From Humidesulfovibrio sp. (lineage in GTDB: Bacteria > Desulfobacterota > Desulfovibrionia > Desulfovibrionales > Desulfovibrionaceae), in assembly GCF_031082295.1 (NCBI RefSeq), contig NZ_JAVHLD010000015.1, positions 2,697-66,696 of the forward strand: a stretch of DNA of 64,000 nt. Direction: 5' to 3'. Below, piece after piece: positions 113 to 42,583 of the stretch. The position numbers and the translations under genes are program-made. Below the pieces are notes generated by a model. The model worked only from the letters and a program-made list of their open reading frames with translations, was not told the DNA's origin and did not search any database. Position 1 is the stretch's first letter, and each line of letters starts with the position of its first letter.

Positions 113-151
113 CTCATGGTCGACAGAGCACCGCGTTCAAAGAACGGCAAG

Positions 152-265
152 TCAATGGTGTCGGGCAAGCTCAGCGATTTCGGCAATTGGAATCTCGCCC
201 GCCTCCCGTATGGTGCGTGCAGGCCATCCGTCAAAGGTGTCGCCTTTGCGGTTTTCAATGATCAT
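152..265 (-). CDS. Possible 37-residue microprotein downstream of hsdR
   Basis: A 37-codon frame starts with ATG at 265, 47 bases after the hsdR stop, on the same strand. The composition (mixed charged and hydrophobic residues, ending IAEIAELARHH) looks more protein-like than the GC-rich shadows nearby. There is no clear Shine-Dalgarno sequence. It could be a small gene of the restriction operon or a remnant of a longer gene. No function can be assigned. Confidence 0.2.
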   Translation of the reverse strand: MIIENRKGDTFDGWPARTIREAGEIPIAEIAELARHH

Positions 266-311
266 CTTTGCCTGACCCGCTTTAGCAATAGAGCCTCATT
301 ACCATCCCATC

Positions 312-4455: not shown

Positions 4456-5993
4456 TTGGCACCTCCCATCACCCGCGCATCCTCAAGCAATTCGAAGAGG
4501 CCATCCATCGACTCCCGCAAAGCCATCGAGCTTTCCTGCCAGTTCGCAATAGCCTGCTTAAGGCTGACCGTTTCGATCGCCCTATTGCCATTGCCGTTTC
4601 CGTTGCCCGCCCGTACGTAGAGCGGAATGCTGAGATTGCTGGCTTTCTCCTTGATCTCGTCATTGCCGACCACCCGGGCAAAGCCGTCCACGTCACTGAA
4701 CGTCTGGTAGACGGCGACAATGCGCTGGATATGGTCTTCGGTGAGGAAGCTCTGTGCCCGCTCACGGGTCACCTCATTAACCGCGTTGATGAAGAGCACC
4801 TTGTTCCTGCGCTCCTTGGGTTTGTTCATCCGACAGATGACTACGCATGCTTCCATGGGCGAGTTATAAAAGAGGTTGGGGCCGAGCCCCAGCACACACT
4901 CCACCACGTCGTGGGCGACCAGCTTCTCGCGCATGGCCGACTCTTCATTGCGGAAGAGAACACCATGCGGAAACAGGATGGCACAGCGGCCGCTCTTGGC
5001 CTTCATGCTCTTGATGATGTGTTGCCAGAAGGCATAGTCGGCGCGGCCCTGGGGTGGGGTGCCGTAGATGTTCCGGCCCCACGGGTCGGCGGACCAGGCA
5101 TCGCGGTCCCACTGCTTGATGGAGTAGGGCGGATTGGCCAGGACCACATCGAACTGCATGAGTTGGTCGCCTTCGACAAAGGCGGGATTAGCCAGGGTAT
5201 CGTCCCGGACGATGCGGAAGTCCTCGATGCCGTGCAGGAATAGGTTCATCCGGCCGATGGCCGAGGTGAGCAGGTTGCGCTCCTGGCCGAACAGCCGCAC
5301 GTTTCGCCACTCCTTGTTCTGACGCTTCAGATGGGTGACGGCGGAGAGCAACATGCCCGCTGAACCGCAGGTGGGGTCATAGATCGACTCCCCCGGTTTG
5401 GGTTCGAGCATCTCTGTCATCAGATGGACCACGGTGCGGTTGGTATAGAACTCAGCAGCCGTGTGGCCGGAATCGTCGGCAAACTTTTTGATCAGGAACT
5501 CGTAGCCCACACCCAGCTCATCCTCCGGGCAGTTGGCGAGTGAAAGCGTCTGCGAGCTGAAGTGCTCGATGAGCTCGCGCAGCATACGGTCCGGCAGGCG
5601 GTCTTTGTTGGTCCACTGGGCGTCACCGAAGACTCCGTACAGGGTGTCGGGGTTGGCTGTTTCAATAGCCCGCAGCGAGTCCTGGATAGCCTTTCCCACG
5701 TTCTCAACCTTAGTGCGGGTCGCCTTCCAGTGAGCGTCTTCCGGGATCTGGAAGCGATGCTGTTCGGGGAGTGCGGCGTATTCCTGATCGCCGCCGGATT
5801 CCTCCAGCGCATCGGCCAGCTCCTCGCCGTACACGTCACACAGGCGCTTGTAGAACAGCAGAGGGAAGATGAACTGCTTGTAATCCCCGGCATCGATGTA
5901 GCCACGCAGCAAGGTGGCCGCGCCCCAGAGGTAGGATTCCAACTCCGATTGAGAAATGTGCTTATTCTTTTTCACCGTGCTACCACTTCCCAT
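4452..5993 (-). CDS. hsdM: Type I N6-adenine DNA methyltransferase, second HsdM copy
   Basis: This protein transfers a methyl group from SAM to adenine in the HsdS target. The N-terminal helical domain resembles that of the other copy. Motif I is YDPTCGSAG at 205-213 and the catalytic motif is NPPY at 287-290, so it should be active. The conserved EFYTPR loop reads EFYTNR (181-186), a difference from the first copy. The ATG at 5993 lies inside the preceding small gene. A GTG at 5975 gives a four-base GTGA overlap like the other junctions in this operon and may be the true start, making the protein six residues shorter. It is coupled to hsdS by an ATGA overlap. Confidence 0.94.
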   Translation of the reverse strand: MGSGSTVKKNKHISQSELESYLWGAATLLRGYIDAGDYKQFIFPLLFYKRLCDVYGEELADALEESGGDQEYAALPEQHRFQIPEDAHWKATRTKVENVGKAIQDSLRAIETANPDTLYGVFGDAQWTNKDRLPDRMLRELIEHFSSQTLSLANCPEDELGVGYEFLIKKFADDSGHTAAEFYTNRTVVHLMTEMLEPKPGESIYDPTCGSAGMLLSAVTHLKRQNKEWRNVRLFGQERNLLTSAIGRMNLFLHGIEDFRIVRDDTLANPAFVEGDQLMQFDVVLANPPYSIKQWDRDAWSADPWGRNIYGTPPQGRADYAFWQHIIKSMKAKSGRCAILFPHGVLFRNEESAMREKLVAHDVVECVLGLGPNLFYNSPMEACVVICRMNKPKERRNKVLFINAVNEVTRERAQSFLTEDHIQRIVAVYQTFSDVDGFARVVGNDEIKEKASNLSIPLYVRAGNGNGNGNRAIETVSLKQAIANWQESSMALRESMDGLFELLEDARVMGGAK

Positions 5994-6199
5994 TCAGATA
6001 TATCCGTTGGAATATCGGCGTCATCCAGAGAATCCCAGTCGTAATCGCCGGTCGCCTGCATGTAGACGTCATCGGCGGCCGCCATGGCAGCGTGATAGGA
6101 GCCGAGCAGGTCGTCTTTGAACCAAAGTCCCCAGCGACCGTTGGCTTGCGGTTTGATAAGGAACCGACCGATGGGTGATCTGTACTGGTATATCTTCAC
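5972..6199 (-). CDS. 75-residue protein embedded between two hsdM genes
   Basis: I do not recognise this family. The protein is short, acidic at the C terminus and rich in aromatic residues (pattern GRWGLWF near residue 22, then a run of Asp and Trp residues). It has no membrane segment or signal peptide. Its ATG overlaps the stop of the first hsdM (6196-6199), and its end overlaps the start of the second hsdM. Such tight coupling on both sides argues that it is a real gene translated with the restriction system. It could be a structural accessory or a regulator of the modification enzyme, but that is only inferred from position. Confidence 0.7.
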   Translation of the reverse strand: MKIYQYRSPIGRFLIKPQANGRWGLWFKDDLLGSYHAAMAAADDVYMQATGDYDWDSLDDADIPTDISEWEVVAR

Positions 6200-7713
6200 A
6201 GGAGCCCCTCCCGGAGCAGCAGCACCTTCAGGCGATCCTCTGCCGTGTACGCCGCCTGCAACGATTCCTTGAGATTGGCGACGGCCTGATCGATGGTCAT
6301 GGATTCTTCCTCGATCACCGGCTCCACATAGCGTGGAATGTTCAGGTTGAAATCATTCTCGCGGATCTCGTCGAGCGTGACCACCCGGCAGATCCTTTCC
6401 ACGTCCTGATAGCCCTCGTACCAGCGATGGATGTTGTCCACGTGTTCCGGCAACAGCTCGTTTTGGGCGCGGCCGGTCTTGAACTCTTTCGAGGCGTTGA
6501 TGAACAGCACCTTCTGGCGGTGTGCCTTGGGTTTGCTGTCGCGGAAGACCAGGACGCACGGCGCGAGACCAGTGCCGTAGAAAATATTCTGGCCGAGACC
6601 GATCACCGCTTCGAGGATGTCCATCTCCAGCAGCTTGCGCCGGATCTCGCCCTCCTTGGACATGCGGAACAGCACGCCATGGGGAAGCACCACGGCCATG
6701 CGTCCGGTCTTGCGAGCCATGGACTTGATCATGTGCTGGACCCAGGCGAAGTCAGCAGAGGTCGCAGGCGGCAGCCCGGCAAAGTTGCGGCCGTAAGGGT
6801 CGTTGACCCAGACGTCGTCACCCCACTTTTCCAGTGAGAACGGAGGATTGGCGATGACACAGTCAAAGGTGGCGAGGCTGTCGCCTGAATAAAAGGCGGG
6901 CAAGCGCAGTGTGTCGCCGCGTTCGATATGAAAATCTTCTGCGCCGTGAAGAAAGAGGTTCATTCGGGCGATGGAGGATGTGGTCAGGTTCATTTCCTGG
7001 CCGTAGAGCTTGCCCAGCATGAGGTTCTCATCGCCGCCATGCTCTTTGACATGATGCAGGGCCTCGAGGAGCATGCCGCCAGTCCCGCAGGCCGGGTCAT
7101 AGATGGATTCCCCGGCCTTGGGCGCTAGAATGCGAACCATCAGCGCGACCACAGAGCGCGGGGTATAGAATTCACCGGCCTTCTTATTGGTCAGGTCGGC
7201 AAATTTCTTGATCAGGTATTCATAGGCCTGGCCGAGAATGTCCGCCTTGCAGTGCTTATTGCCCAGGTTGAGCGACGAGAAGTGTTCGATCAGGTCCTTG
7301 AGTAATGCGTCAGATAGACGATCCTTGTTGGTCCACTGGGCATCGCCGAAAATGCCATGCAGGGTGTCCGGGTTGGCCTGCTCGAGGCAGCGCATGGCCT
7401 TCTGGAGCGCATGGCCGATATTGACGCTCTTGGCCCGGACATCCTTCCAATGGCAGCCCTCCGGAACCTGAAACCGGTGGTTCTCGGGGAATTGGGCAAA
7501 TTCCATGTCGCCGTCGGAGTCTTTCAGGGCCACGGCATACTCTTCGTCGTAGACATCGGAGAGCCGCTTGAAGAACAGCAGAGGGAAGATGTAGGTTTTG
7601 AAGTCAGCCGCGTCGACAGGACCGCGCAGGATATTGGCCGCCTCCCAGAGATGCCCGGAGAGGGTCCCGATATCCAGATCGACTGAATTATTATTCCCGT
7701 TCTTCTTGCTCAT
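6196..7713 (-). CDS. hsdM: Type I N6-adenine DNA methyltransferase, first HsdM copy
   Basis: This is a 505-residue HsdM, clearly paralogous to the second copy: both share the N-terminal pattern around YIFPLLF and the block FGDAQWTNKDRL. SAM-binding motif I is YDPACGTGG at 205-213 and the catalytic motif is NPPF at 289-292. The typical EFYTPR loop is present at 181-186. I chose the ATG at 7713 because it overlaps the stop of the upstream helix-turn-helix gene as ATGA; a longer frame to 7794 would run deep into that gene. The stop overlaps the start of the 75-residue gene. Two complete HsdM subunits with one HsdS is unusual. Confidence 0.94.
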   Translation of the reverse strand: MSKKNGNNNSVDLDIGTLSGHLWEAANILRGPVDAADFKTYIFPLLFFKRLSDVYDEEYAVALKDSDGDMEFAQFPENHRFQVPEGCHWKDVRAKSVNIGHALQKAMRCLEQANPDTLHGIFGDAQWTNKDRLSDALLKDLIEHFSSLNLGNKHCKADILGQAYEYLIKKFADLTNKKAGEFYTPRSVVALMVRILAPKAGESIYDPACGTGGMLLEALHHVKEHGGDENLMLGKLYGQEMNLTTSSIARMNLFLHGAEDFHIERGDTLRLPAFYSGDSLATFDCVIANPPFSLEKWGDDVWVNDPYGRNFAGLPPATSADFAWVQHMIKSMARKTGRMAVVLPHGVLFRMSKEGEIRRKLLEMDILEAVIGLGQNIFYGTGLAPCVLVFRDSKPKAHRQKVLFINASKEFKTGRAQNELLPEHVDNIHRWYEGYQDVERICRVVTLDEIRENDFNLNIPRYVEPVIEEESMTIDQAVANLKESLQAAYTAEDRLKVLLLREGLL

Positions 7714-7919
7714 TCTGCTTGATCCTGTCTGCTCTTGTCCGCCGCACCGCCAGCCTTCACCCACTCGTCGATCTCGTCTTTCTTGAACTTCCAAAGGCGG
7801 CCCATTCGATGGGCGGGCATCGCATGCTTGTCTATCCAGCGGTAAACGGTGTCACTACTGACACCGAGGAACTTACCTATCTCATCTACCGATAACCAGC
7901 GGTCTTCTATCTCGGCCAT
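7710..7919 (-). CDS. Excisionase-family helix-turn-helix DNA-binding protein
   Basis: This is a 69-residue protein of the MerR-like/excisionase (HTH_17) family. The pattern LSVDEIGKFLGVSSDTVYRWI near residues 9-29, followed by a wing with MGRLWKFKKDEIDEW, is typical of these domains. Such proteins bind DNA as small architectural or regulatory factors. It is the first gene of the restriction operon and overlaps hsdM by four bases. A 16-bp perfect palindrome lies 84 bp upstream, so a role in controlling the operon is plausible. It could instead be a leftover excisionase from a mobile element. Confidence 0.85.
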   Translation of the reverse strand: MAEIEDRWLSVDEIGKFLGVSSDTVYRWIDKHAMPAHRMGRLWKFKKDEIDEWVKAGGAADKSRQDQAE

Positions 7920-8625
7920 TATTATGTGTCCTCATGGGCGATTTGTGTTTGCCACGCCAGAGGCGGTAACGTGGATGTTGGGTGCAGCTTCTCCAGCTTA
8001 AGGCATTCTATAGAATGCTTTTGCTAGGGGCCGGTTGTCAAACGCTTTCGTCCGGATAAGGCCGCAAACATCGGCTCAGGGGCGCATGGCCTGCCCCCAT
8101 GAGTTGTACCACTCGTAAGTCTGGGATGCCTATCTTGAGTCCAGAGGTGGTTCCCTGGGGGCGGCTGGCGCCGGTGGGGCATGCTGCATGTTCTCCTCGT
8201 GCGGTTCCGATGGCTATAAGCCTAAGGAAATAGGAATTGCTTACAACCGTGCGCGATGTCCTGCAAGTGACTTTGGGGTAGGGAGTGCATGTAGGGAGAG
8301 GGGGCGCTTATGCGTTCTGTGTTTTTTGATACGACTAGTCGGAGGCAATGGTAACGGCCGAATGCCTGCAGCAATCTCCCAGCATATTTGGCAATCATCT
8401 GGATATATTTTGCGTATGCCCCCAAGTATGCCCCGCAGGACGTGCCCGTCAGGCTCTTTGGGGGTCAATTGAGGCTTGGGTGAGGGCCGAAGGCCAATGC
8501 GGAGAAAGCTGGAGGTGCTTTCCGGGGGAGTGGGTTTCCGTTGATGCTAACTGAGCTAGTGCGTTACGCAAATGCCTGATAGCCGAGTTCGCCCGGCTGT
8601 CATTCCAAAGCATCCTGTCACGCGC
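7920..8625. other. Intergenic region upstream of the restriction operon
   Basis: About 700 bp without a supportable gene. It should contain the promoter of the restriction operon on the minus strand. Visible structure: the 16-bp palindrome at 8003-8018 and a tandem pair of GTATGCCCC (8414-8422 and 8426-8434, period 12), which could be protein-binding sites. Open frames on both strands here lack start signals and family resemblance. Confidence 0.5.
8003..8018. promoter_or_regulatory. 16-bp perfect palindrome, candidate operator
   Basis: The sequence GCATTCTATAGAATGC is its own reverse complement. It lies 84 bp upstream of the helix-turn-helix gene that heads the restriction operon. Size and position fit a dimeric repressor or controller site. 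A-T pairs two bases further out extend the symmetry across one G-T mismatch. There is no following T-run in the operon direction, so it is not an obvious terminator. Confidence 0.45.
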
Positions 8626-9157
8626 CTACCTGGCAGGCAATTCTAGCCCTTCATTCATGATGTCCAACACACCGCCATAGCTGAAAACCCTGCCGCGCTT
8701 CCTGCCGGTGGTCTCCCGCACGATCCCAAGCCGCTCCAGAAGAACAAGGCTTTTGTTGACCGTGGCCGGGCTGATCCCGGTCCTGGCCCCCAGGGACTTG
8801 GCCGTGGCCACAGGATGAGCCAGGAACGCCTTGTGAATCTGGATGGTGGATTCTGCAGCGCGCCCTAGTGTGGTCAACTTCTCTCTGTCTGCTGCGGCGA
8901 GCTCATGCAGGCGTCTTGAGGTATCGACCGCTTGTGAGGAAGTTAAGACAACAGCCTCGGCAAAGAATTCAAGCCAAGCCTCCCAGTCGCCATCGGTCCT
9001 GACTTGGCCCAACAGTTCGTAGTACCGTTGCCGATGAGTCTTGAAATACAGGCTCAGGTACAGCAGGGGCTCTCGCAGGATCTTCTGTTCACAGAGCAGC
9101 AAGGTGATGAGGAGTCGGCCCAGGCGACCGTTGCCGTCCAGGAACGGATGGATCGTT
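8626..9157 (-). pseudogene. Fic family protein, 5'-truncated
   Basis: Fic proteins transfer AMP or related groups to target proteins. The surviving frame begins with T-I followed by the Fic active-site motif HPFLDGNGRLGR (read from 9147 to about 9112), then a helical domain and a C-terminal winged-helix region (GARTGISPATVNKSLVLLERLGI). Immediately before the motif the frame hits a TAA, and the upstream sequence is the leader of the serine recombinase gene, not Fic sequence. About half of a normal Fic protein, including any inhibitory N-terminal helix, is missing. An ATG at 9102 would give a 158-residue protein without the catalytic motif. The gene was probably cut by the insertion or deletion that brought the recombinase. 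Confidence 0.85.
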
Positions 9158-9191
9158 TAGAAATGCTGTCAGCACGGAGGAGGTGCCCAGC

Positions 9192-9854
9192 ATGGGTAAG
9201 GTCTACGCCTACTTGAGGGTCAGCACGGACAGGCAGGACTTGGAGAACCAGCGGATGGAGATCACGGCCTACGCCGCACGGCTGGGGCTGGAGGTGTCCG
9301 AGTGGCTGGAGGTGGAGATCAGCTCCCGGAAGGACATCAGCAAGCGCCGGATCGTCGAGCTGGTGGACAGGCTCAAGCGTGGGGACGTACTGGTGGTGTC
9401 CGAAGTCTCACGGCTGGCCCGGTCCATGCGTGAGGTGCACAACATCATGGGCGACTTGGCCGCCAAGAAGGTGGAGGTGCACATCATCAAGCAGAACGTG
9501 GTGGCCCGTGGCGAGGGTGACATGACCACGGACATCCTGATCAACGCCTTTGCCATGGCTGCCCAGATGGAGCGGACCCTCATCAGCCAGCGGACCAAGA
9601 ACGGCCTTGCCAGGGTGAAGGCCCAGGGCAAGAAGCTGGGCAACCCCAACCTGGAGCGGATCAACACGGCCCGCCAGGAGAAGGCGGACCAGGGCGTGGA
9701 GCGCCTGCGGGGCACCTTGGCCGCGTTCAAGGGGCAGGGCATGACCCAGCGCCGCATGGTGGAGGAGCTGAACACCTTGGGGATCAGGACGGCCCAGGGC
9801 TGCACCTGGAGCCTGTGCGCTGTGCAGAGGGCCTTGAAGCGCCTGGGGCTGTGA
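9192..9854 (+). CDS. Serine recombinase, resolvase/invertase family
   Basis: The protein belongs to the Pin/Hin/Tn3-resolvase family, which cuts and rejoins DNA through a serine nucleophile. From the ATG at 9192 the N terminus reads MGKVYAYLRVSTDRQ with catalytic Ser11. Conserved arginines follow (SRLARS near residues 70-75 and the MERTLISQRTKNGL block of the E helix). The C-terminal region (GMTQRRMVEELNTLGI) is a helix-turn-helix. At 220 residues it is a full small recombinase. The start at 9192 has the sequence GGAGG about ten bases upstream; a second ATG at 9183 is possible. It lies head to head with the broken Fic gene. I see no clear invertible segment beside it. Confidence 0.93.
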   Translation: MGKVYAYLRVSTDRQDLENQRMEITAYAARLGLEVSEWLEVEISSRKDISKRRIVELVDRLKRGDVLVVSEVSRLARSMREVHNIMGDLAAKKVEVHIIKQNVVARGEGDMTTDILINAFAMAAQMERTLISQRTKNGLARVKAQGKKLGNPNLERINTARQEKADQGVERLRGTLAAFKGQGMTQRRMVEELNTLGIRTAQGCTWSLCAVQRALKRLGL

Positions 9855-10260
9855 GGTGGGGGCTGAAATACCGCGTTGGCCTTACTCCCCCAACGCTTCT
9901 TTGCAAACAGGGCCGAATTACCAGCCACTTCCTTGGAAACAAGGCGCACCTTTTGGGGCACCTTCGGTGGCCTCGCTCCCTGGTGCTGATCCTGGCCCTG
10001 GGGGTGCCCCTCGCAAAAAGCGCCTGGGTGGCCCTGCGGGGCGTTCTGGCGGCCTTGCGGTGCCGTTGTGGCCGAGAGGCGGGGGGGCGCGTCTGCGGGC
10101 CTCCTGGGTGGCAAATATGACGCATCTCCATGCGTCCGTCGATCTGGTCGATGCAGTGTGCCCAGGCCGTGTAATTACCCGACATGTTTTAGGAGACAGG
10201 GTGTGGATTCCTGCACTTTCCTCTTGCAAGACTGGTCCAGTTGTGCTATTTTAAGATATA

Positions 10261-10281
10261 CTACAAGTAATCTACTTGTAG
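10261..10281. repeat. Perfect inverted repeat, 9-bp arms
   Basis: CTACAAGTA, a 3-base spacer ATC, then TACTTGTAG. The surrounding 150 bp is AT-richer than its flanks and repeats partial copies of the words CTTGTAG and AGTCTTCCT. It could be a recombinase or regulator binding site, or a weak terminator. Function is not known. Confidence 0.5.
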
Positions 10282-10715
10282 ACCACCAGTAAGACCACCC
10301 ATAGTCTTCCTTGTAGGGTTATGAGTAGTCTTCCTCCTAGAGATAGCTTCAAGATACTGCGAGTCCTCCCGTAGCCCCTCCCAGCTCTCAAGTAGCTGCC
10401 CTGTTCATCCTGATCCACCACCACCCACCCAGGCCTACCTGGGCAGCCTATCGCCCTGGACCAGCGCCAGGACCTCCCAGGTGCCCAGCGGTGGGGCCGC
10501 TGCTGTGCCTGGGGCATCCTGGCGAGGGCAGGGCGTGGTGTGGGCTAGGGCCGGGCATGGGTGAGGCCGCAGATCGTGATCCCCACTTTCTGGCTGTGGG
10601 CGGCAGGCAACGTGGGCGCTCCTGGTGATCCAGGCCCTGCGTTGCCTGCCGCCCTGGTCATTCTGCACCTGTGGGCTTGAGCATCTGTTACGTTTGGTGG
10701 GGTGGTGCGGCTGTG

Positions 10716-10740
10716 AGGGTATCAGCATCGGTGATACCCT
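10716..10740. repeat. Perfect inverted repeat, 9-bp arms, 7-base loop
   Basis: AGGGTATCA, seven bases, then TGATACCCT. It sits about 60 bp before the AntA/AntB fragment. It may be a phage operator or a hairpin in an old transcript. Confidence 0.45.
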
Positions 10741-10798
10741 TGGGCTTGGTTGCATTACCTTCAGTAAGGGTTTCGTCCCCATCGGCACCTGCCCCGCC

Positions 10799-11040
10799 TT
10801 CGGTGATGGCCTCATCGACACCGTCAACGCCCGTGAGCTGCACAAGGCGCTCGGCTCGAAGCGCGAGTACGCCACCTGGGTGAAGCAGCGCATCGACGCC
10901 TGCAACTTCAAGGAAAACGAGGACTTCGTGGTTTTTGACGGAACGGTCAAAAACCCCCTCGGTGGCCGTCCGACCAAGGAGTACTTCCTGACCCTCGACG
11001 CCGCCAAGCACTTCGCCATGCTGGAGAAGACCGAGACCGT
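10799..11040 (+). pseudogene. AntA/AntB phage antirepressor, fragment
   Basis: About 80 codons match the AntA/AntB antirepressor domain: GDGLIDTVNARELHKALGS, then TWVKQRID, the hydrophobic FKENEDFVVF, and KEYFLTLDAAKHFAMLEKTE. In intact proteins this is followed by a conserved R-x-Y-F-I-E-C-E segment. Here homology stops at about 11040 and unrelated sequence follows. No convincing start codon with a ribosome binding site is present before the domain. Such proteins relieve phage repression during induction, so this is a prophage remnant. Confidence 0.75.
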
Positions 11041-11125
11041 GACCCTATGCTGGGAGTTTCCCATGTTAGGCGTGCGGGCGGCGCATACCCCTTGTCGAAC
11101 AGGGGGTAACCTCGTCCTCGGACAT

Positions 11126-11337
11126 CTACCCCGTCTTCACCTTCTCCTCGCCCATGACGTACATGCCGTCCTTGCGGAGGGCGGGGAGTACTTCACGGGT
11201 CACCCAGTTCTGGAAGCGTTTGGCGGCGGGCTTGTCCGAGCGCATGATGAGCTTGTAGAGGCCCGACTCGGAGATGACGGCGACCTTCTGGGGGGCCACC
11301 AGGGGTGTTCATCTGATGAAGTCCCTTCTCGTCCTGG
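11126..11337 (-). pseudogene. Bro-N antirepressor C-terminal piece with frameshift
   Basis: Read on the minus strand, the sequence encodes DEKG..NTPGG and then KVAVISESGLYKLIMRS, followed by KPAAKRFQNWVTREVLPALRKDG, all hallmarks of the phage Bro-N antirepressor domain, and ends at a TAG (11126-11128). The two halves are in different frames. The break falls in a run of six G (11290-11295 on the plus strand), where removing one base restores the protein. It has no start codon. It therefore cannot make a full protein. Confidence 0.75.
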
Positions 11338-11392
11338 GGAACAGGGAGAGTGTGGTAAAATTACATTCTCTTTTCACCAGGGAGACGATCCT

Positions 11393-11413
11393 GCCACTCA
11401 TCGGATGAGTGGC
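11393..11413. repeat. Inverted repeat, 10-bp arms with 1-base centre
   Basis: GCCACTCATC, one G, then GATGAGTGGC. It lies between the two Bro-N fragments, next to the point where the upstream copy loses homology. It could be a hairpin end left by a small element or a recombination product. Confidence 0.45.
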
Positions 11414-11595
11414 GGGCATGCCTGACGACCACCAGGGGTGTCAAAAGTTTTGACTCCCTTCTGATCCGAGGCCAACGGGGCCAAGGCCATGGTGATGTTC
11501 TTCAGCCCGAGGCAGACCACGACATCACGGGCCGTGAACCACGGCTTGTTGTCGATGTTGGTCACACGCAGGGACCGGCCCTCGAAGTTGAACAT
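11398..11595 (-). pseudogene. Bro-N antirepressor N-terminal piece
   Basis: From an ATG at 11595 the frame reads MFNFEGRSLRVTNIDNKPWF, then ARDVVVCLGLKN, MALAPL and DQKGVKTFDTPGG. This is the first half of a Bro-N domain. After TPGG the frame leaves the family and stops at 11398. The next fragment downstream repeats the DEKG..TPGG part, so this is not one interrupted gene but the remains of two related copies. The shared word CCACCAGGGGTGT (plus strand) near 11297 and 11430 marks the duplicated segment. Confidence 0.75.
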
Positions 11596-11794
11596 GGGGT
11601 TGCTGCCGGGGTTGGCGGGGATGTTGCGGCGAAGGGCGGGCCTACTGGCTGGCGATGCCCACCGGACGGGGATCGAGAGGAGCGTGGCACCTGGATGTAG
11701 ATTGTATAACATGTGAGAATCATTAACTTTATGTTGACGTGACGTGTTGGTGCGGGCATAGGGTCGGGCAAAACCCTTGAGGAGGAACCGACCC

Positions 11795-12121
11795 ATGGAC
11801 CTGTTTACCTACGACACCGAGACCCCGCCCCCTGCTTTGTTCGCCCTGGACCTCTGCGGCCTCCTGGCCGTGCGCCTCCAGTCCCGTGGCTTCACCCTGG
11901 CGATCCTTCCCCGCTGGCTCCTGGCCCTGGACGTGACGTTCACCCGGCGCGGCCTGGGGCTGGCTGGGGTGATCCTTGGCCGTGGCATCTTCAGCACGCG
12001 GACGGAGCGCCCGGCCTTGGATTGGTGGGCGGAGGACAGCGCCCGGCATCTGCGGGTGGGTCGCCTGTGGCTCACGCTGGAGCGGAAGGCGCGGCAGGCG
12101 GAGGCCCCGCAGATCGGGTAG
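11795..12121 (+). CDS. Hypothetical 108-residue protein
   Basis: I do not recognise this protein. The ATG at 11795 is preceded by GAGGAGGAA at 11780-11788, a strong ribosome binding site, which is the main reason to believe the gene. The protein starts acidic (MDLFTYDTET), has a hydrophobic middle (about residues 13-45, possibly one membrane-associated segment) and a basic C terminus. It lies among phage remnants, so it may be a phage or island gene. Chance remains possible. Confidence 0.5.
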   Translation: MDLFTYDTETPPPALFALDLCGLLAVRLQSRGFTLAILPRWLLALDVTFTRRGLGLAGVILGRGIFSTRTERPALDWWAEDSARHLRVGRLWLTLERKARQAEAPQIG

Positions 12122-32006: not shown

Positions 32007-32220
32007 TCCCGCTGAATACCCCCCCCGGCCAGCGCCGAGGCGGCCGCCACGCCCAGGGCAAGCCCCTTGGCGGGCTGCTGCGCGCATGGCCTCCTGAAGA
32101 AGAGTCCTCCAGACGCGCATCAAAAATCCTCGCGCATTGACTCTTATCCTTCTTTCGTCCAAGTATATGACAATCCTTTTCACTCGTTGCCCGCCAACGC
32201 CAACCCGAAGGCAGTCTTGC

Positions 32221-33729
32221 ATGAGCAACTATGCCGCGCACCTTTTGCTGGAAAAGGCCCCCCTTTGGTCGGAGCGCATCGCCGCGCGCTGCGAGGGCAG
32301 GAGCCTCACCTATGCCGAGCTGGTGCGGCTGTCCAAGGCCATGGGCGGCCTGCTGCGCCAGCGGGGCGTCGAGCCCGGCGGCAAGGTGCTCCTGGTCCTG
32401 CCGGACAGCTTTTCCCTCCTGGCGAGCTTTCTCGGCTGCATGCTGGGGGGCATGGTTCCCGCCCCGCTGAACAGCCGCCTGCGCCGCCAGGATTATGCCG
32501 AGTGCCTCGCGGACATCGAACCCGCGCTGGTCATCGTTTCCGCCGGGCACGAGGCCCTGGACGCCGCCGCCGAAGCCGGCGTGCCCGCCCTGGTCCTGGA
32601 TGACCACAGCCTTGAGCCGCTGCTGCAAGACGTTGCCCCCGTGGTTGCGCATCCCTCCGGGCTGGACGACGTCGGCGTGTTTTTCGTCACCTCCGGCACC
32701 ACGGGCCACCCCAAGGTCGTGCCCCACCGCCACGAGGACTTTTTCGTCGTGGGCGAGTGCATGGGGAATTTCTTCGGCATTAGGCAGGACGATGTCCTCT
32801 TGTGCTCCGCCAAGATCGGCCACGCCTACGGCATGTTCTCCTCGCTCATCATGCCGCTTCAGGTCGGCGCCACGGTGGTGCTCGACCCGGACAAGCCCAC
32901 CCCGGAGAACACCCTGCGGCTGTTCGCGGAGGAGAAGGTCACGGTCTTCCTGTCCGTGCCTGTCCTGTTCACCATGCTGCTGCTGGCCATGGATTCCCCG
33001 GAGGGCGCTTCCCCCGCGGGACTTGGGCAGGTGCGGCTGTGCTTCGCCGCGGGCGAGGCCCTGCCCGGAGCCGTGTTCGAGAGCTGGCGCGCAAAAACGG
33101 GTTTGGAAATCTGGCAGGGCTACGGCTCAACGGAGACGATGACCTTCATCATCGGCAGCCGCCCGCCGGACATCGTGCCCGGCACGGCGGGACGGGTGCT
33201 TAAGCCCTATCAGGCGTGCGTTCTGGACGAAAACCACCGCCCGGTCCCGTCCGGCGTGCCCGGACAGATCGCCGTGCGCGGGGCCTCGGTCACACGCGGC
33301 TACCACAACGCGCCGGAATGGACGCGCCGGATATTCACCGCCGACGGGCTGCTGCTCACCGGCGACATGGGCGTGGAGCGCGACGGCCTGTTCACTATCA
33401 TGGGCCGCATGGACGACATGTTCAAGGCGGGCGGGCTGTGGGTTTCGCCCATGCGGGTGGAGAACGCGCTGCTCTCGCACCCCGACGTTGCCCAGTGCGC
33501 CGTCACCGGAGGCGACGTGGGCGCCTTCACCCTGGTGCGGGCGCATGTGGTGCCGAAGCAGGGGCGGGAGGCCGGGCAGGAGCTGGTGGAGTCCCTGCGG
33601 CGCCACGCCCTGGAGTCGCTGCCCGACTACATGGTCCCCACGGACATAGTTTTTCACGCCTCCCTGCCCATGACGGCCAGCGGGAAGATCCAGCGGTTCG
33701 TCCTGCGGCGGGAGGCCTCAAACGGTTGA
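32221..33729 (+). CDS. AMP-dependent acyl-adenylate synthetase/ligase
   Basis: This ANL-superfamily enzyme activates a carboxylic acid with ATP and loads it onto CoA or a carrier protein. The 502 residues show FFVTSGTTGHPKVVPHRH (phosphate loop), GYGSTETM (adenine site), TGDMGVERDGLFTIMGR (hinge Asp and Arg) and the catalytic lysine in TASGKIQRF. The benzoate/2,3-dihydroxybenzoate-like plan suits an aryl or short acyl substrate, but none can be fixed. I chose the ATG at 32221. An acyl carrier protein follows at once, so the acyl chain is probably loaded onto it. Confidence 0.9.
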   Translation: MSNYAAHLLLEKAPLWSERIAARCEGRSLTYAELVRLSKAMGGLLRQRGVEPGGKVLLVLPDSFSLLASFLGCMLGGMVPAPLNSRLRRQDYAECLADIEPALVIVSAGHEALDAAAEAGVPALVLDDHSLEPLLQDVAPVVAHPSGLDDVGVFFVTSGTTGHPKVVPHRHEDFFVVGECMGNFFGIRQDDVLLCSAKIGHAYGMFSSLIMPLQVGATVVLDPDKPTPENTLRLFAEEKVTVFLSVPVLFTMLLLAMDSPEGASPAGLGQVRLCFAAGEALPGAVFESWRAKTGLEIWQGYGSTETMTFIIGSRPPDIVPGTAGRVLKPYQACVLDENHRPVPSGVPGQIAVRGASVTRGYHNAPEWTRRIFTADGLLLTGDMGVERDGLFTIMGRMDDMFKAGGLWVSPMRVENALLSHPDVAQCAVTGGDVGAFTLVRAHVVPKQGREAGQELVESLRRHALESLPDYMVPTDIVFHASLPMTASGKIQRFVLRREASNG

Positions 33730-33777
33730 TGCGCGCTTTCTCGATCGTGAACAAACCTGAGACGCAAGGAGCATTTC

Positions 33778-34011
33778 ATGTCGGCAACACTGGAAGACCT
33801 CAAGAAGACCTTCGCTTTCGCCATTCCCGCTGATGTCCTGGCCAAGCTCGACCCGGCCAAGCCGCTGGCCGCCCAGGGCGTTGATTCCCTCGCCATGACG
33901 GCCATGGCCGTGGCCATGCAGAACGCCTTCGGCGTGAAGGTCAGCGTCGAGGAAGGGTTGAAGCTGAAGACGCTCAACGACGTCCTGGCCTTCGTCAACA
34001 AGGCCCGCTAG
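33778..34011 (+). CDS. Acyl carrier protein
   Basis: A 77-residue carrier protein. Its phosphopantetheine attachment serine is in the motif GVDSLAMTAMAV (Ser about residue 40), which fits ACPs and PCP-like carriers. Helix lengths match an ACP. AGGAGC precedes the ATG. It lies 48 bp after the ligase and 17 bp before an acetyltransferase-like gene, so it is a dedicated carrier of this cassette and not the fatty acid ACP. Confidence 0.9.
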   Translation: MSATLEDLKKTFAFAIPADVLAKLDPAKPLAAQGVDSLAMTAMAVAMQNAFGVKVSVEEGLKLKTLNDVLAFVNKAR

Positions 34012-34028
34012 CAGGGGCTGCAGACAAC

Positions 34029-35051
34029 ATGACGACACGCGCGGAGGCCCTGGCCCGGCTCAGCCAGCAGCCGGACACCGTTCAGCCGGGGCTTGTCTAC
34101 GTGGTGGAGGCCTTCCGGCCGGAAGACGCCGAGGCCGTGTGCGACCTGTTCTACAGGGTCTATCAGGACGCCTACCCCGTCGACATGTACTACATCCCCG
34201 ACGCCGTGCGCGGCGCGGTGGCAGAGGGCGCGCTGTATCCGGTGGTGGCCCGCCTGGCGGGGGGGGAGGTCATCGGGTTCGCGGCGTTGTACCGCTCCTC
34301 CCCGCCCTTCGCCGGGTTGCTGGAGTTCGGGCTGGGCATGGTGCACCCGGCGTATCGCGGCTCGCTCATCCTGTTCCACCTGACCACCGAACTCATGGAC
34401 CTGATGAACTCGCTGCCGTCGGTCGAGGCGGTGTACGGCGAGGCCGTGTGCGACACCATCATCACCCAGCACTCCAGCGCCCTGTTCGGCTTCAGGGAGG
34501 TGGCCCTGGAACTGGAGCTCATGCCGGGGGGCGGCTCGGGCCGCATCTCCTGCCTGGCCGTATTCCGCAACATCCGCGACCGCAGGCGCACGCTGCATGC
34601 CCCGGCGTTCTGCGCCGGGGAGCTGGGCAAGCTTCTGGCCTGGGCGGAGCTTGACCGCGAGGTGGTGGCGCTGGGGGAGGAGTCCCTGGCCGCGCAGGCG
34701 ACGCGCCTGGAAGTCCAGACCTTCGCCCACGCCGGGGTCATGCGCGGCAACGTGTACAGCCTGTCCGGCGACGGCGCGGCGGCCATGCGCCAGGCCGAGG
34801 CCGCGGCGGCGGAGCAGGGCTGCCGCGTCTTCCAGTGGTTCCTGAACCTGGCCGAGCCCAGCGCGGCGGCCGGGGCCTGGCCGCTGGCCCGCAACGGCTA
34901 CCGGCTGGGGGGGCTCATGCCGCGCTGGTTCGACGACGACGCCCTGCTCATGCAGAAGCTTCTGGACCCTCCCGCGGTGGAGCGCATCAACCTCTACTCT
35001 GACCGCGCGCGCGAGATTCAGGCCATGACCTTGGCGGAGCCCGCCCTGTAG
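34029..35051 (+). CDS. GNAT-like acyltransferase
   Basis: The first 190 residues resemble the GNAT acetyltransferase fold: an acidic start (RPEDAEAVCDLFYRVY), the beta-strand IGFAALYR, and the acyl-CoA segment near GLGMVHPAYRGSLILF. The second half is less clear and may be a second, degenerate GNAT domain (GYRLGGLMPRW near the end). With the ligase and ACP just upstream, the likely job is to move the activated acyl group from ACP to an amine. The acceptor is unknown. No export or regulatory gene is attached. Confidence 0.72.
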   Translation: MTTRAEALARLSQQPDTVQPGLVYVVEAFRPEDAEAVCDLFYRVYQDAYPVDMYYIPDAVRGAVAEGALYPVVARLAGGEVIGFAALYRSSPPFAGLLEFGLGMVHPAYRGSLILFHLTTELMDLMNSLPSVEAVYGEAVCDTIITQHSSALFGFREVALELELMPGGGSGRISCLAVFRNIRDRRRTLHAPAFCAGELGKLLAWAELDREVVALGEESLAAQATRLEVQTFAHAGVMRGNVYSLSGDGAAAMRQAEAAAAEQGCRVFQWFLNLAEPSAAAGAWPLARNGYRLGGLMPRWFDDDALLMQKLLDPPAVERINLYSDRAREIQAMTLAEPAL

Positions 35052-35355
35052 CCCCTGGCCGGTTGAGCCCATCGCAACCGGCCAGAGCCCCTGTCCTGCT
35101 CCGCAACTCTCAAACAGAAATGTTCGGCCCGGGTTCCCCTCCTGTGCCGTGCATTGCCGCGCCCCGCGCTATCCCAAGGGGCTTAAGCTTCTCTGGCGGC
35201 GCAGGCTTGTGCCAAATCCTCACCCGAACATTGTGAATCCTGGCGCAACCGTTGCGGGCCGGGTCAAGAAAGGATACAGGCCTAGTTTCTGCGCCCACCC
35301 CGGAGTGAATCCTTTCGATCATCATGGCGCGGCAACAACCAAGGAGTCCTGACGC
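35052..35355. other. Intergenic region upstream of metF
   Basis: About 300 bp. It must hold the metF promoter and leader. I looked for the conserved cores of SAM, cobalamin and THF riboswitches and did not find one. The composition is that of the genome. No supportable gene. Confidence 0.5.
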
Positions 35356-38337: not shown

Positions 38338-39648
38338 CTAGCAGCCGTCGCCCGTGCCGCAGCAGGCCTTGCCCACGCCGCCGCGCCTGGCGCGCAGGGC
38401 TTCCAGCCTGGCTATGCCGTCCTCGCCGTAGGCCAGCGCCAGGGCTTCCTCGATGAACCCGGAGCAGGCCGCCGCCGGGGTGCCGCTCTCGGCCAGGATC
38501 CTGCGCGGGGTGTCGCCCACGGCCGCCACCAGCACGGCCCGGCAGTCGGACAGCAGCTTGGCCAGGTCCTCCCAGCGGGAAGGGCCGCACCCGGCGGTCG
38601 GGGCCTGCCGCTCCTCGACCATGCGGAAGCCGCCGTTTTCGGCCAGCCCCCAGATCTGGAAGCGCTTGGCTTCGCCCAGGTGCAGGTTCACCAGCAGGCC
38701 TTCGCGGGTGGCCACGGCCACGTAGGGGCGGTCGGCCTTGTTCGCGGGGGGCATCTTGCTGCAGGCGGAAAGCACGCCGCCAAGCTCGGTGGAGCGGTCG
38801 TGGCACAGGAGCCCCACGGCGTCGGCGCGGCAGCGGCGGCAGTGGGTCATTTGCGGCACCAGGGGGCCTGCCTCGGCGCGCAGGGCGTTTATCTGCTCCT
38901 TGGAGGGCTCGACGAGCTCTCCGAACGGGGTTCCCTCGGTGGGGTGCATGGGCATCAGGTTCTGCAGGTCCACGCCGAGTTCTTGAGCCTTTTGGGCCAC
39001 GGCCTGGATGTGGGTGTCGTTCACGCCGGGGATGACGATGGTGTTGACCTTCACGGCCAGCCCGCGGGCCTTCAGGCCTTCGATGGCCTCCAACTGGCGG
39101 CCGAGGATGAGCTCGGCGGCGTCCTGGCCGCGATAGACCACGTTTCCGTCGCGCACCCAGGAGTAGATCTTGGCGCCGATGGCCGGGTCGATGGTGTTGA
39201 GCGTCACCGTGGCGTGGGTAACGCCCAGGTCGGCCAGGTCGTCCAGGTACTCGGGCATGGCCAAACCGTTGGAGGACAGACAGAAGAGCATGTGCGGGTA
39301 TTCCTTGCGGATGAGGCGCATTGTCTCAAGCGTCTCCGCCGGGTTGGCCATGGGGTCGCCGGGGCCGGCGATGCCGATGACCGTGATGCGCGGTTCCTTG
39401 TCCAGCACCTGCCTGGTGTATTCCAGGGCCTGGAAGGGCTTCAGGATGCCGCTGGTCACGCCGGGGCGCGACTCGTTCACGCAGTCGTACTTTCTGTTGC
39501 AATAGTTGCACTGGATGTTGCACTTGGGCGCCACCGGCAGGTGCACGCGGCCGCAGGAGCCGGACGATTCCTTGTTGAAGCAGGGGTGCTTGACGGACTT
39601 CGGGTCGACACTGGCGGATGTGTTGGGAGTAGTGATGATGGTCTGCAT
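38338..39648 (-). CDS. nifB: Nitrogenase cofactor maturase NifB
   Basis: NifB builds NifB-co, the Fe8S9C core of the FeMo cofactor, by radical SAM chemistry. From the ATG at 39648 (AAAGGAGC upstream) the protein has 436 residues. The radical SAM cysteines are C43, C47 and C50 (CNIQCNYC). The conserved N-terminal HPCFNKESSG and the later GPGDPMANP and CRRCRADA motifs are present. The last third is the NifX/NafY-like cofactor-binding domain (VNLHLGEAKRF) common in bacterial NifB. It is the last gene of the nifH operon, 31 bp after nifN. Confidence 0.97.
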   Translation of the reverse strand: MQTIITTPNTSASVDPKSVKHPCFNKESSGSCGRVHLPVAPKCNIQCNYCNRKYDCVNESRPGVTSGILKPFQALEYTRQVLDKEPRITVIGIAGPGDPMANPAETLETMRLIRKEYPHMLFCLSSNGLAMPEYLDDLADLGVTHATVTLNTIDPAIGAKIYSWVRDGNVVYRGQDAAELILGRQLEAIEGLKARGLAVKVNTIVIPGVNDTHIQAVAQKAQELGVDLQNLMPMHPTEGTPFGELVEPSKEQINALRAEAGPLVPQMTHCRRCRADAVGLLCHDRSTELGGVLSACSKMPPANKADRPYVAVATREGLLVNLHLGEAKRFQIWGLAENGGFRMVEERQAPTAGCGPSRWEDLAKLLSDCRAVLVAAVGDTPRRILAESGTPAAACSGFIEEALALAYGEDGIARLEALRARRGGVGKACCGTGDGC

Positions 39649-39679
39649 GGTCGGCTCCTTTCTCTGATATGTCGAGCTG

Positions 39680-41122
39680 CTAGAGGTATCCGTAGCCGAT
39701 GTCGGAATCGTTCTGCTTCTTTTCAAGGACGAGGTTCACCAGCCGGTCGAACAGGGCCTGCGCGCCCCGGTAGCCCAGGTGCAGCAGCCGCTGCCCGCCG
39801 AAGCGGTCGTGGATGGGAAAGCCCACGCGCAGAAGCGGGATGTTCCACTCGCGCGCGGCCCGCTGGCCCTTGCTGTGGCCCACCAGCAGGTCCGGGGCGA
39901 GGGTCTTCGCCTCTTCCACGATGTCGAAGAAGTCCGCGCCCTCGCGAATTATCGGTCTCAGATGGGGGGGCATCTCCCGCAGCACGGAGCCGCAGGCCGC
40001 CTCAATGTGCGCGGAGAGGTTGCGGTTCCTGGCGCCGGTTGCCACCAGCACGGGGTGCACGCCGATCTCGGCCAGGAAGCTCGTCAGGCCGATGCACAGG
40101 TCTTCCTCGCCGTAGACCACGGCCTTGAGGCCGGAGACGTACTTGTGGCCGTCCACCAGGGAGTCGATGTAGCGGCCGCGCTCTAGAAGCAAATCGCGCG
40201 GGGTGTCGACCCCGGTGATGGACTTGAGCGTGGCGAACAGCGCGTCCGTCTCGCGGATGCCCATGGGCAGGCCCAGGCGGAACAGCGGGGTGCCGAAGCG
40301 TTCGTTGAGGGACGTGCCGGCGGTGTCCTGGGTCGAGATTGCCCGGCCCAGCTCCACGCTGGCGCGCGCGCCACTCATGGCGCGGATGTCGGCCACGCTG
40401 GTGCCGCCGGAGGGGATGTTCTCGTATTCCAGCAGGGCCGGGGCGTCGAGGGTCTCGGAGTAGTCCGGCAGGACGATTGCCTCCACGCCGAAGCCCCGGA
40501 AGATCTCCTTCAGGTGGCGGATGTCCGCCGGGGAGACCATGCCGGAGAAGAGGTTCACGCGGGAGTTGGCCGGGGCCGCGTTTTCCCGTGAGCCGGGGCA
40601 GAGCTGGTCCACGAGGGCCTTCACCGCGCCGTGGAAGCCGTCCATGTGCGTGCCGGAGTAGCTCGGCGTGGACACGTGCACCAGTTCTGCCAGCGGCAGG
40701 TCCTTGAACTCCTCGCGGAACTCGGTCAGCAGGCGCGCCACGTCGTCGCCAATGGTCTCGGTGAGGCAGGTGGTGGCAACGCCGATGACGCCCGCGCCGT
40801 ACTTCTGCATGGCGTTCAACAGGCCCTTCTTGAGGTTGGGGCCGCCGCCGTAGATGGCGTTCTTTTCGCCGAGCGACGAGGACGCGATGTCCATGGGCTC
40901 GCGGAAGTGGCTGATGATGTAGCGGCGCATGTAGGTGGCGCAGCCCTGGGAGCCGTGCAGGAAGCTCACCGCGCCCTCCACGCCCTTGAAGGCCAGGGTG
41001 GCGCCCAGCGGAGTGCACAGCTTGCAGGCGTTGGTGGTGGCGACGTTGCTTAAGCCCTTGTAGTCGCTGGCCGACGCGGCGGGAGCGCTGACTGCGGAAT
41101 CAATGACGGCGTTCAGGTCCAT
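39680..41122 (-). CDS. nifN: FeMo-cofactor scaffold subunit NifN
   Basis: NifN pairs with NifE to form the scaffold on which NifB-co is turned into FeMo-co. At 480 residues it is full length and resembles NifK, with cluster-ligand cysteines in ACKLCTPLG, HGSQGCATYM and TTCLTETIGDD. The start is ATG 41122, three bases after nifE's stop. The C terminus has the NifD/K-fold helix (SKGQRAAREW). It acts in the cytoplasm with NifE. Confidence 0.95.
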   Translation of the reverse strand: MDLNAVIDSAVSAPAASASDYKGLSNVATTNACKLCTPLGATLAFKGVEGAVSFLHGSQGCATYMRRYIISHFREPMDIASSSLGEKNAIYGGGPNLKKGLLNAMQKYGAGVIGVATTCLTETIGDDVARLLTEFREEFKDLPLAELVHVSTPSYSGTHMDGFHGAVKALVDQLCPGSRENAAPANSRVNLFSGMVSPADIRHLKEIFRGFGVEAIVLPDYSETLDAPALLEYENIPSGGTSVADIRAMSGARASVELGRAISTQDTAGTSLNERFGTPLFRLGLPMGIRETDALFATLKSITGVDTPRDLLLERGRYIDSLVDGHKYVSGLKAVVYGEEDLCIGLTSFLAEIGVHPVLVATGARNRNLSAHIEAACGSVLREMPPHLRPIIREGADFFDIVEEAKTLAPDLLVGHSKGQRAAREWNIPLLRVGFPIHDRFGGQRLLHLGYRGAQALFDRLVNLVLEKKQNDSDIGYGYL

Positions 41123-41125
41123 GGT

Positions 41126-42583
41126 CTACGCCTCCTCGATCGGACGGTTCTGGGACTCGCGCCGGGGCACGAACTGCCAAATGGGGCTCATGACCGAGGC
41201 GTGCACTTCCTTGGCGAAGTTCAGCATGCCCACGAAGCCCTCCAGCGCGATCTTGCGCTCGTGGTTGTGGTCGCAGAAGCCGACGCCCAGCTTGAAGGCG
41301 ATGGGGCGCTCCTTCACGCCGCCCACGAAGATGTCCACGTCCTTTTCCTTGAGGAAGGCGGACAGCTCCAGCGGGTTGGCGTCGTCCACCACGATGGTGC
41401 CGGGCGCGCAGATGGCGGCCAACTCGCGGTAGTCATCCTCGGTGCCGGTCTGGGAACCCACGATGACCACTTCCATGCCCAGGTGGCGGAAGGCCTTGAC
41501 CAGGGAGAAGGCCTTGAAGCTGCCGCCCACGTACACGGCGGCCTTCTTGCCCTCCAGGTCGCGGCGGAACTCCTTGAGCTGCGGCATGAGGGTGGCCAGC
41601 TCGTCGCGGACGAGGAGCGCGGTGCGCTCGACCATGCCCGCCGCCAGCTCCGGCTGGGTCAGCTCGAAATGCTCGGCCACGGCGTACAGGCTCTCGGCCA
41701 CGTCCTCGATGCCGATCCACGACACGCGCAGGAAGGGGATGCCGAAGTCCTCTCGCATCATCTTGGCCAGGTCCTGGGTGGAGCCGGAGCACTGCACGAG
41801 GTTCAGGGCCGCGCCGTGCGCGCGCTTGAGGTCGTCCACGCGGCCGTCGCCCGTGATCCCGGCCACCACCTCGATGCCCATGCGGTTCAGGTAGTCCTTG
41901 ATGATCCAGGTCTCGCCCGCCAGGTTGAAGTCGCCCATGATGTTCACGGAGAGCTTCGAAATGTCCGCGGTCTCGCCGGTGCCCACCAGGGTGCGCATGG
42001 CCTTGCACGCGGCCAGGTAGCCCTCGCGCTTGTTGCCCTTGAAGCCCTCGCTCTGCACCGGGATGACCGGGATGCCGTGGCGGGCGCTGGCGGCCTTGCA
42101 CACGGCGGCAAGGTCGTCGCCGATGAGGCCCACGATGCAGGTGGAGTACACGAAGGCGGCCTTGGGCTCGTAGCGCGGGATGAGCTCGTCCAGGGCCTTG
42201 GCCAGCTTCTTCTCGCCGCCGAACACGACGTCGAGCTCCTGCAGGTCGGTGCTGAAGGACAGGCGGTGCAGCTCCGGGCCGGAGGACAGCGCGCCACGGA
42301 TGTCCCAGGTGTAGGCAGCGCAGCCGATGGGGCCGTGCACCAGGTGCAGGGCGTCGGCGATGGGGTAGAGCACCACGCGCGAGCCGCAGAACACGCAGGC
42401 GCGCTGGCTCACCGCTCCGGCGAGGCTGTCGCGGTTGCAGGCCATGGCGAAGTCGCCGTCGCCCACGCGGTGGATCTGGTCCTTGCGCTCCTCGAATATT
42501 GTCGCACGCTCCGCAGGGATCGCCGCGGAATCTTCGGGGCAGGCGATGTGTTCCGGCGTGAGGGCCTTGGCTGTCTCGGTCAT
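41126..42583 (-). CDS. nifE: FeMo-cofactor scaffold subunit NifE
   Basis: NifE is the NifD-like half of the NifEN scaffold. The 485 residues hold the cysteines CVFCGSRVVLYP, HGPIGCAAYTW and STCIVGLIGDD that bind the [4Fe-4S] cluster and cofactor precursor. The start is ATG 42583. It lies after the GNAT gene and is tightly spaced with nifN (3 bp), so the two are made in equal amounts. No unusual feature is seen. Confidence 0.96.
   Translation of the reverse strand: MTETAKALTPEHIACPEDSAAIPAERATIFEERKDQIHRVGDGDFAMACNRDSLAGAVSQRACVFCGSRVVLYPIADALHLVHGPIGCAAYTWDIRGALSSGPELHRLSFSTDLQELDVVFGGEKKLAKALDELIPRYEPKAAFVYSTCIVGLIGDDLAAVCKAASARHGIPVIPVQSEGFKGNKREGYLAACKAMRTLVGTGETADISKLSVNIMGDFNLAGETWIIKDYLNRMGIEVVAGITGDGRVDDLKRAHGAALNLVQCSGSTQDLAKMMREDFGIPFLRVSWIGIEDVAESLYAVAEHFELTQPELAAGMVERTALLVRDELATLMPQLKEFRRDLEGKKAAVYVGGSFKAFSLVKAFRHLGMEVVIVGSQTGTEDDYRELAAICAPGTIVVDDANPLELSAFLKEKDVDIFVGGVKERPIAFKLGVGFCDHNHERKIALEGFVGMLNFAKEVHASVMSPIWQFVPRRESQNRPIEEA

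Follow-up and report, generated by a model that had tools for sequence, protein, structure and literature searches.

The 64,000-nucleotide stretch of Humidesulfovibrio sp. analysed here (contig NZ_JAVHLD010000015.1, positions 2,697 to 66,696 of the forward strand; hereafter the window) carries a plus-strand trio of genes that encode an AMP-forming acyl/aryl-acid ligase of 502 amino acids (32221..33729; PF00501 1.6e-70, PF13193 9.8e-16), a stand-alone acyl carrier protein (ACP) of 77 amino acids (33778..34011; PF00550 7.6e-10) and a double-domain GNAT acyltransferase of 340 amino acids (34029..35051; PF00583 and predicted fold). All three reading frames are open and are separated by gaps of 48 and 17 bases, so that the closely spaced genes recognized in the first-pass annotation, which had been made from the sequence alone, are confirmed, with their families assigned by Pfam or by fold. 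We posit, with a probability of roughly 70%, that the trio works as one acyl-transfer module in which the ligase loads an acid on the carrier and the GNAT moves the acyl group to an amine.

The GC content of the trio is 66%, similar to that of its flanks. On the 5′ side of the ligase lies a 214-base gap (32007..32220, plus strand) that we presume to be the promoter region; within it only ATTGACTCTT is identical across the three same-locus relatives compared, and a promoter scan found no sigma-70-like site 5′ of the ligase. Four bases past the GNAT stop, a perfect 11-base inverted repeat with a 9-base loop and without a T run (35055..35085) forms a possible end-of-operon hairpin; a terminator scan did not report it and gave a single terminator-like match, inside the ligase, against 2.5 in shuffles. 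Rfam and tRNA scans of the window returned nothing beyond one tRNA-Ser. We noticed no polyketide or peptide synthase in the neighbouring genes inspected, the whole window not having been scanned for them.

Family and fold of the three proteins

The carrier belongs to the ACP family (PF00550, 39.3 bits against a cut-off of 20.8), with its attachment serine in a G-V-D-S-L motif. The ligase finds its best solved matches in benzoate-CoA ligase 2v7b (1.3e-74), anthranilate-CoA ligase 4wv3 and benzoate-CoA ligase 4rlf, and TIGR02262, the benzoate-CoA ligase family, fits it best among NCBIfam models, without its being a member by score (311.5 bits, cut-off 375.25 bits). Given these matches and the retained AYG motif, the acid is most likely aromatic or heteroaromatic. 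In the window ligase and in six relatives (L032, L123, L033, L034, L035 and L161; L numbers are those of fetched loci), His201 replaces the Phe of the FFAYG motif, which stands at that position in 2v7b, 4rlf and the other 27 aligned trios; window-type ligases may therefore load an acid different from that of a second trio in the same genome, described below.

Two relatives carry a single open reading frame of 1322-1328 amino acids (L043:8698-12666 and L044:8459-12445), preceded by another GNAT gene, in which a coumarate-ligase-like domain, a GNAT and an aromatic amino acid lyase are joined; in L043, Pfam and NCBIfam gave the lyase at 1.1e-142 and the 4-coumarate-CoA ligase model at 1e-82, below its cut-off. 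Judged by its predicted domains, this fusion would let a single polypeptide supply the acid, activate it and transfer it, and such lyase fusions point to the kind of acid that is used. Photoactive yellow protein was considered as the target of the coumarate-ligase fusions and rejected, as no match above cut-off was found in genomes G090, G028 or G000, the sole weak match (G000) scoring 24.2 against 143.05 bits.

By sequence, the GNAT is a marginal member of its family (PF00583, 21.0 bits against a cut-off of 20.7) and matched no solved structure at E ≤ 10. Its predicted model (pLDDT 95.2, pTM 0.92, 56 sequences) places residues 22-188 in the GNAT superfamily, with Z up to 13.4 and an rmsd of 2.9 over 163 residues aligned to 1yvo; residues 190-340 form a putative second alpha/beta half. 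The fold search with residues 22-188 retrieved many ordinary acetyltransferases and singled out no particular acceptor, and spermidine acetyltransferases, which fill much of the Foldseek list, scored equal to the others. Glu99 is invariant in all 131 GNATs of the family tree and is, by analogy with other GNATs, a candidate base. Identity with LuxI, FeeM or OlsB was rejected, as Pfam at E ≤ 0.1 returned none of the families concerned.

Conservation and co-evolution of the trio

Of the 149 family genomes searched, 59 hold relatives of the GNAT, as do 68 of 395 genomes of the phylum by an alignment-based search, with cultured Solidesulfovibrio aerotolerans and Fundidesulfovibrio agrisoli among their bearers; a scan of named genomes yielded 50 loci. 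The 130 loci fetched were annotated with a home-made gene caller, so that some gene starts are uncertain, and L061 and L083 were poorly called in the run that underlies the comparison of gene layouts; the taxon labels of small contigs from metagenome-assembled genomes (MAGs; e.g., L125, 4.3 kb) may be binning errors. A close ligase lies near the GNAT in 45 of the 130 loci, and 43 of these 45 also have a carrier (same-record repeats included). Once the window and all known duplicate records are set aside, the order ligase-carrier-GNAT recurs in 24 other loci (in L128 with ligase and carrier 4.2 kb apart), and in 7 the ligase is followed by a carrier and GNAT fused into one protein; the remaining arrangements comprise a pair on the opposite strand in two loci (L069, L077), a single case each of carrier-GNAT-ligase and GNAT-ligase-carrier, and two loci that lack a carrier. 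In the reverse direction, 24 of 28 ligase matches (E ≤ 1e-60, the 149 family genomes) lie within 3 kb of a GNAT match. The first-pass annotation had held that free separation of the genes in relatives would tell against a common path; with 24 ligases near a GNAT and four exceptions, the genes do not separate freely, yet they are not inseparable, and this comparison gives no refutation.

Related arrangements were also seen. Ligase-carrier pairs lie beside an ABC importer, with a substrate-binding protein that neighbour clustering assigns to the NMT1 kind, in L182 and L183, and also in L069 and L077; L182 and L183 have no GNAT nearby, which suggests an imported acid. Contigs from Oscillospiraceae/Eubacterium MAGs (L164-L169) encode ligases of 520-541 amino acids, in some cases a separate carrier of 73-74 amino acids, and GNATs of 418-434 or 778-791 amino acids. 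The contig of L161, which breaks off after the carrier, has a window-type ligase and carrier together with a GNAT from a different subgroup.

Evolutionarily, the three proteins vary together: over 34 trios, the window included, pairwise distances correlate at 0.869 for ligase and carrier, 0.801 for carrier and GNAT and 0.773 for ligase and GNAT, shared species history not being removed from these values, and the best of 2000 permutations reached 0.24. Among 131 GNATs placed in a tree, 45 form a group that includes the window protein; 34 of the 45 have a ligase within seven genes, and every one of these 34 has a carrier with the G-x-D-S serine. Among the 11 members without a ligase, six bear a fused N-terminal carrier-like domain that lacks the serine (L047, L048, L053, L054, L056, L063), three have no carrier (L041, which has an apparent remnant, L046 and L050) and two have a normal carrier (L126, with a short ligase fragment, and L133), while L055 combines a ligase and an intact carrier with a GNAT bearing a serine-less domain. 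The association between ligase presence and a serine-bearing carrier gave a Fisher p of 5e-6, with loci treated as independent and no correction for shared ancestry.

This pattern bears on the idea that the ligase makes aryl-CoA thioesters for aromatic-acid breakdown, with carrier and GNAT left to another function. The closest solved relatives of the ligase are indeed benzoate- and anthranilate-CoA ligases of catabolism, ligase-carrier pairs do occur with an NMT1-type ABC importer, and in L128 a 2-hydroxyacyl-CoA-dehydratase-type gene (PF06050) lies on the other strand between ligase and carrier; yet the carrier serine is lost mostly where the ligase is absent, the carrier adjoins the ligase in nearly all ligase-GNAT loci (43 of 45) and the benzoate-CoA ligase model stays below its cut-off, so that we regard such a catabolic role as very unlikely.

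A second alternative concerns the acyl donor. GNATs that use CoA share a CoA-loop motif, R/Q-x-x-G-x-G/A, whose glycine is absent in 45 of the 45 members of the window's group and also in 54 of the 86 others; with glycine loss so common outside the group, we rejected the CoA loop as a means of assigning donor type. It is nonetheless quite unlikely, in our estimation, that the GNAT is an ordinary acetyl-CoA-dependent enzyme that happens to stand beside a ligase-carrier pair of another pathway. Against the frequency of relatives that have neither ligase nor carrier, the glycine kept in 32 of the 86 outside the group and the fact that CoA donors are usual for most GNATs, as the consulted parts of PMC6331615 state, stand the carrier-GNAT fusion in 7 loci, the ligase-GNAT-lyase fusion in 2, the correlated distances and the uniform absence of the loop glycine within the group. 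Taken with its conservation, the trio is a real module, more than a chance assembly, and the acyl-transfer path of activation, loading and transfer that the first-pass annotation had read from the three genes fits the families, the conservation, the fusions and the biochemical precedent set out below.

Genomic setting and the larger cluster of relatives

Upstream of the trio lie an ABC-F (uup-like) and a NUDIX (mutT-like) gene, and downstream metF-, asd- and class IV aminotransferase-like genes, followed by nitrogenase-cofactor-type genes on the other strand. The latter (38338-42583, minus strand) comprise a gene for a radical SAM plus dinitrogenase-cofactor domain protein (NifB-like) and two for nitrogenase-component-1-type proteins (NifE/NifN-like). 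Elsewhere in the window, positions 1-12000 have a GC content of 57-61%, below that of the following stretch (up to 70%), and are possibly an island. The same flanks and an 81% identical GNAT recur in a Humidesulfovibrio MAG (L123) and in the uncultured delta proteobacterium AM4_bin-625 (L032/L122), there with one extra gene before metF.

In relatives, the trio often has other company. Within eight genes of the 33 ligase-bearing members of the 45-GNAT group (the window excluded), we counted a molybdenum-hydroxylase large subunit in 22, a HisC-like aminotransferase in 20, an MFS transporter in 20 and a protein family here called c2 in 20, and SpoIIE, STAS, HATPase and NMT1 genes were frequent neighbours. 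The same families stand near GNATs outside the group (hydroxylase 29/86, HisC 46/86, MFS 32/86, c2 39/86), and they accompany GNATs without a ligase, which makes this core wider than the trio. A recurrent cluster of c2, HisC, the three hydroxylase subunits, MFS and GNAT was observed in L102, L107, L112, L116, L117, L120, L127, L145 and others, spanning several Desulfobacterota families as well as records with the labels Thiodictyon and Rhodoferax, and SpoIIE, STAS and HATPase genes often adjoin it; a Geobacter-labelled record has a ketoacyl-ACP synthase III, a second GNAT and an additional carrier inserted between its hydroxylase genes (L134:14910-17135). The hydroxylase large subunit has 4-hydroxybenzoyl-CoA reductase and nicotinate dehydrogenase as its nearest solved structures, which are too distant for its substrate to be named from them.

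The c2 protein (L127:3278-4609 and relatives; L176:7973-9325 on contig C66 of the source genome) has no Pfam or NCBIfam match. Its model combines an anti-sigma-factor (RsbW/SpoIIAB) domain (Z 16) with a GNAT domain (Z 15), and a profile comparison aligns the window GNAT to residues 161-424 of c2 (probability 96%, E 2.3e-9); c2 is thus predicted to join an anti-sigma domain to a double GNAT of the same kin as that of the window.

The source genome itself (3.45 Mb, 73 contigs) holds a second trio on contig C17 (L177), whose GNAT is 38% identical to the window GNAT and which is followed by three hydroxylase genes and, ~10 kb further on the same contig, by a SpoIIE/STAS/HATPase/NMT1 set; c2, HisC and MFS genes stand together on contig C66 (L176). 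A gene that clusters with an ammonium-transporter-like protein also lies near both of these parts of the core cluster, on C17 together with a PII-like gene, these labels being a reading of sequence. The genome encodes one ACPS-type phosphopantetheinyl transferase and gave five carrier-type matches, the window carrier and its paralogue among them. In addition, G091 and G140 have a window-type trio inside the core cluster, alongside a second GNAT. Because of these trios and the second one of the source genome, the window trio is most simply seen as a diverged, relocated copy of an accessory trio, standing alone by the uup/mutT-like and metF/asd genes. The self-contained mini-cassette of the first-pass annotation is, accordingly, not supported: relatives often have the trio within a larger cluster, and its own genome has a second one.

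On contig C33 (L180) of the same genome, another stand-alone ligase and carrier, with an unrelated GNAT, lie inside what reads as a surface-glycan-like cluster. This cluster is one of two points in favour of a trio that acylates a macromolecule (lipid, sugar or protein) and not a small amine, the other being a match of the GNAT to the OlsB ornithine N-acyltransferase model (NF052554, E 0.071). That match is a trace, at 12.9 bits against a required 350, so that the GNAT does not qualify as OlsB, and the neighbours of relatives are oxidoreductase, aminotransferase and MFS transporter genes; we therefore consider a macromolecular acceptor unlikely. The data at hand likewise lend no support to the signal molecule or modified lipid that had been suggested as the product.

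Proposed reaction and known parallels

Functionally, the ligase would adenylate a carboxylic acid, most likely aromatic or heteroaromatic as its family suggests, and would then load it on the phosphopantetheine arm of the dedicated carrier, a step to which neighbourhood, fusions and serine retention point. The GNAT would pass the acyl group from the carrier to a small-molecule amine, or less likely a hydroxyl, in keeping with its fold and with the altemicidin precedent. In relatives, the larger cluster probably makes and exports the acceptor, the trio being accessory to it.

Several observations weigh against this reading. No NCBIfam cut-off was reached by ligase, carrier or GNAT. Loss of the loop glycine, being found in 54 of the 86 other GNATs as well, is not diagnostic of a carrier donor. 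In the wider family it is common for a GNAT to have neither ligase nor carrier: at a loose cut, some ligase lies within seven genes of 12 of the 86 GNATs outside the group, so that the GNAT fold as such needs no ligase-carrier pair. The base of the 45-GNAT group has no reliable support (0.41 one node up), and the six serine-less domains fall in one subclade and may represent one event. On the ligase side, 4 of the 28 matches do not lie beside a GNAT: in G016 and G088 ligase and carrier adjoin an NMT1-type ABC importer, with no GNAT in the stretch fetched, and the two ligases of G097, for which no carrier was seen, lie ~0.55 kb from the end of a contig. Finally, none of the core families of the larger cluster occurs in the window, which ties the window trio to that cluster by homology only.

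Beyond the module itself, we tentatively suggest, as a possible though doubtful extension, that the trio serves as the acid-loading arm of a so far undescribed system for both biosynthesis and signalling in Desulfobacterota, sparsely present elsewhere. In it, an aromatic acid on the carrier would be modified, perhaps by the molybdenum hydroxylase acting on it while bound; double-domain GNATs would couple it to an amine derived from the aminotransferase, the MFS transporter would export the product, and partner switching would gate the synthesis, the window trio being a second, differently charged arm. Gating is proposed because c2 fuses an anti-sigma domain to the same double GNAT and because many clusters include SpoIIE, STAS and RsbW genes, and the fusion raises the question of whether an acyltransferase is switched by an anti-sigma-type partner. 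Amide makers that dispense with a synthase escape searches aimed at polyketide or peptide synthases; if the trio functions as set out for the module, the combination of ligase, serine carrier and GNAT family would offer a sequence handle on a family of amides from anaerobes that reduce sulfate and metals, and a larger cluster that turned out to be a regulated amide pathway would add to the interest. Searches of open-licence PMC papers, subscription papers lying outside them, returned no description of the double-domain GNAT family, of its fusions with a carrier or a lyase, or of its link to a cluster of molybdenum hydroxylase, HisC, MFS and anti-sigma-GNAT genes.

Among known systems, that of photoactive yellow protein couples a lyase and a ligase through TAL and p-coumarate ligase, according to the excerpts available from PMC9664959, and the L043/L044 proteins carry both kinds of domain fused to a GNAT. 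Unlike that system, G090 and G028, which hold the fusions, encode no photoactive yellow protein above cut-off, and the window trio has no lyase. Benzoate- and anthranilate-CoA ligases (2v7b, 4wv3, 4rlf) are the closest solved proteins over the length of the ligase, which keeps their AYG motif; they make CoA thioesters and have Phe, whereas the window clade has His201 and stays below the family cut-off. FeeM, which uses fatty acyl groups on tyrosine, differs in that the window GNAT has no match to such a family (Pfam, NCBIfam) and that the window ligase resembles aryl-acid ligases. The likeness is that this N-acyl amino acid synthase, named in the consulted parts of PMC6331615, is a GNAT-superfamily enzyme fed by an acyl carrier protein.

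The closest parallel in reaction logic, which is thus already known, comes from altemicidin/SB-203208, a Streptomyces cluster whose acid is 2-sulfamoylacetate and for which no molybdenum hydroxylase is mentioned in the sections of PMC6331615 available to us. As those sections describe it, SbzL loads SbzG or SbzK, an amine then receives the acyl group through the action of the GNAT SbzI, and in the parallel pair SbzB/SbzC CoA is no substitute for the carrier. Compared by gene content only, the window trio resembles SbzL-SbzG/SbzK-SbzI, as reported there, in combining a stand-alone adenylating enzyme, a stand-alone carrier and a GNAT, which in the altemicidin system transfers to a small-molecule amine.

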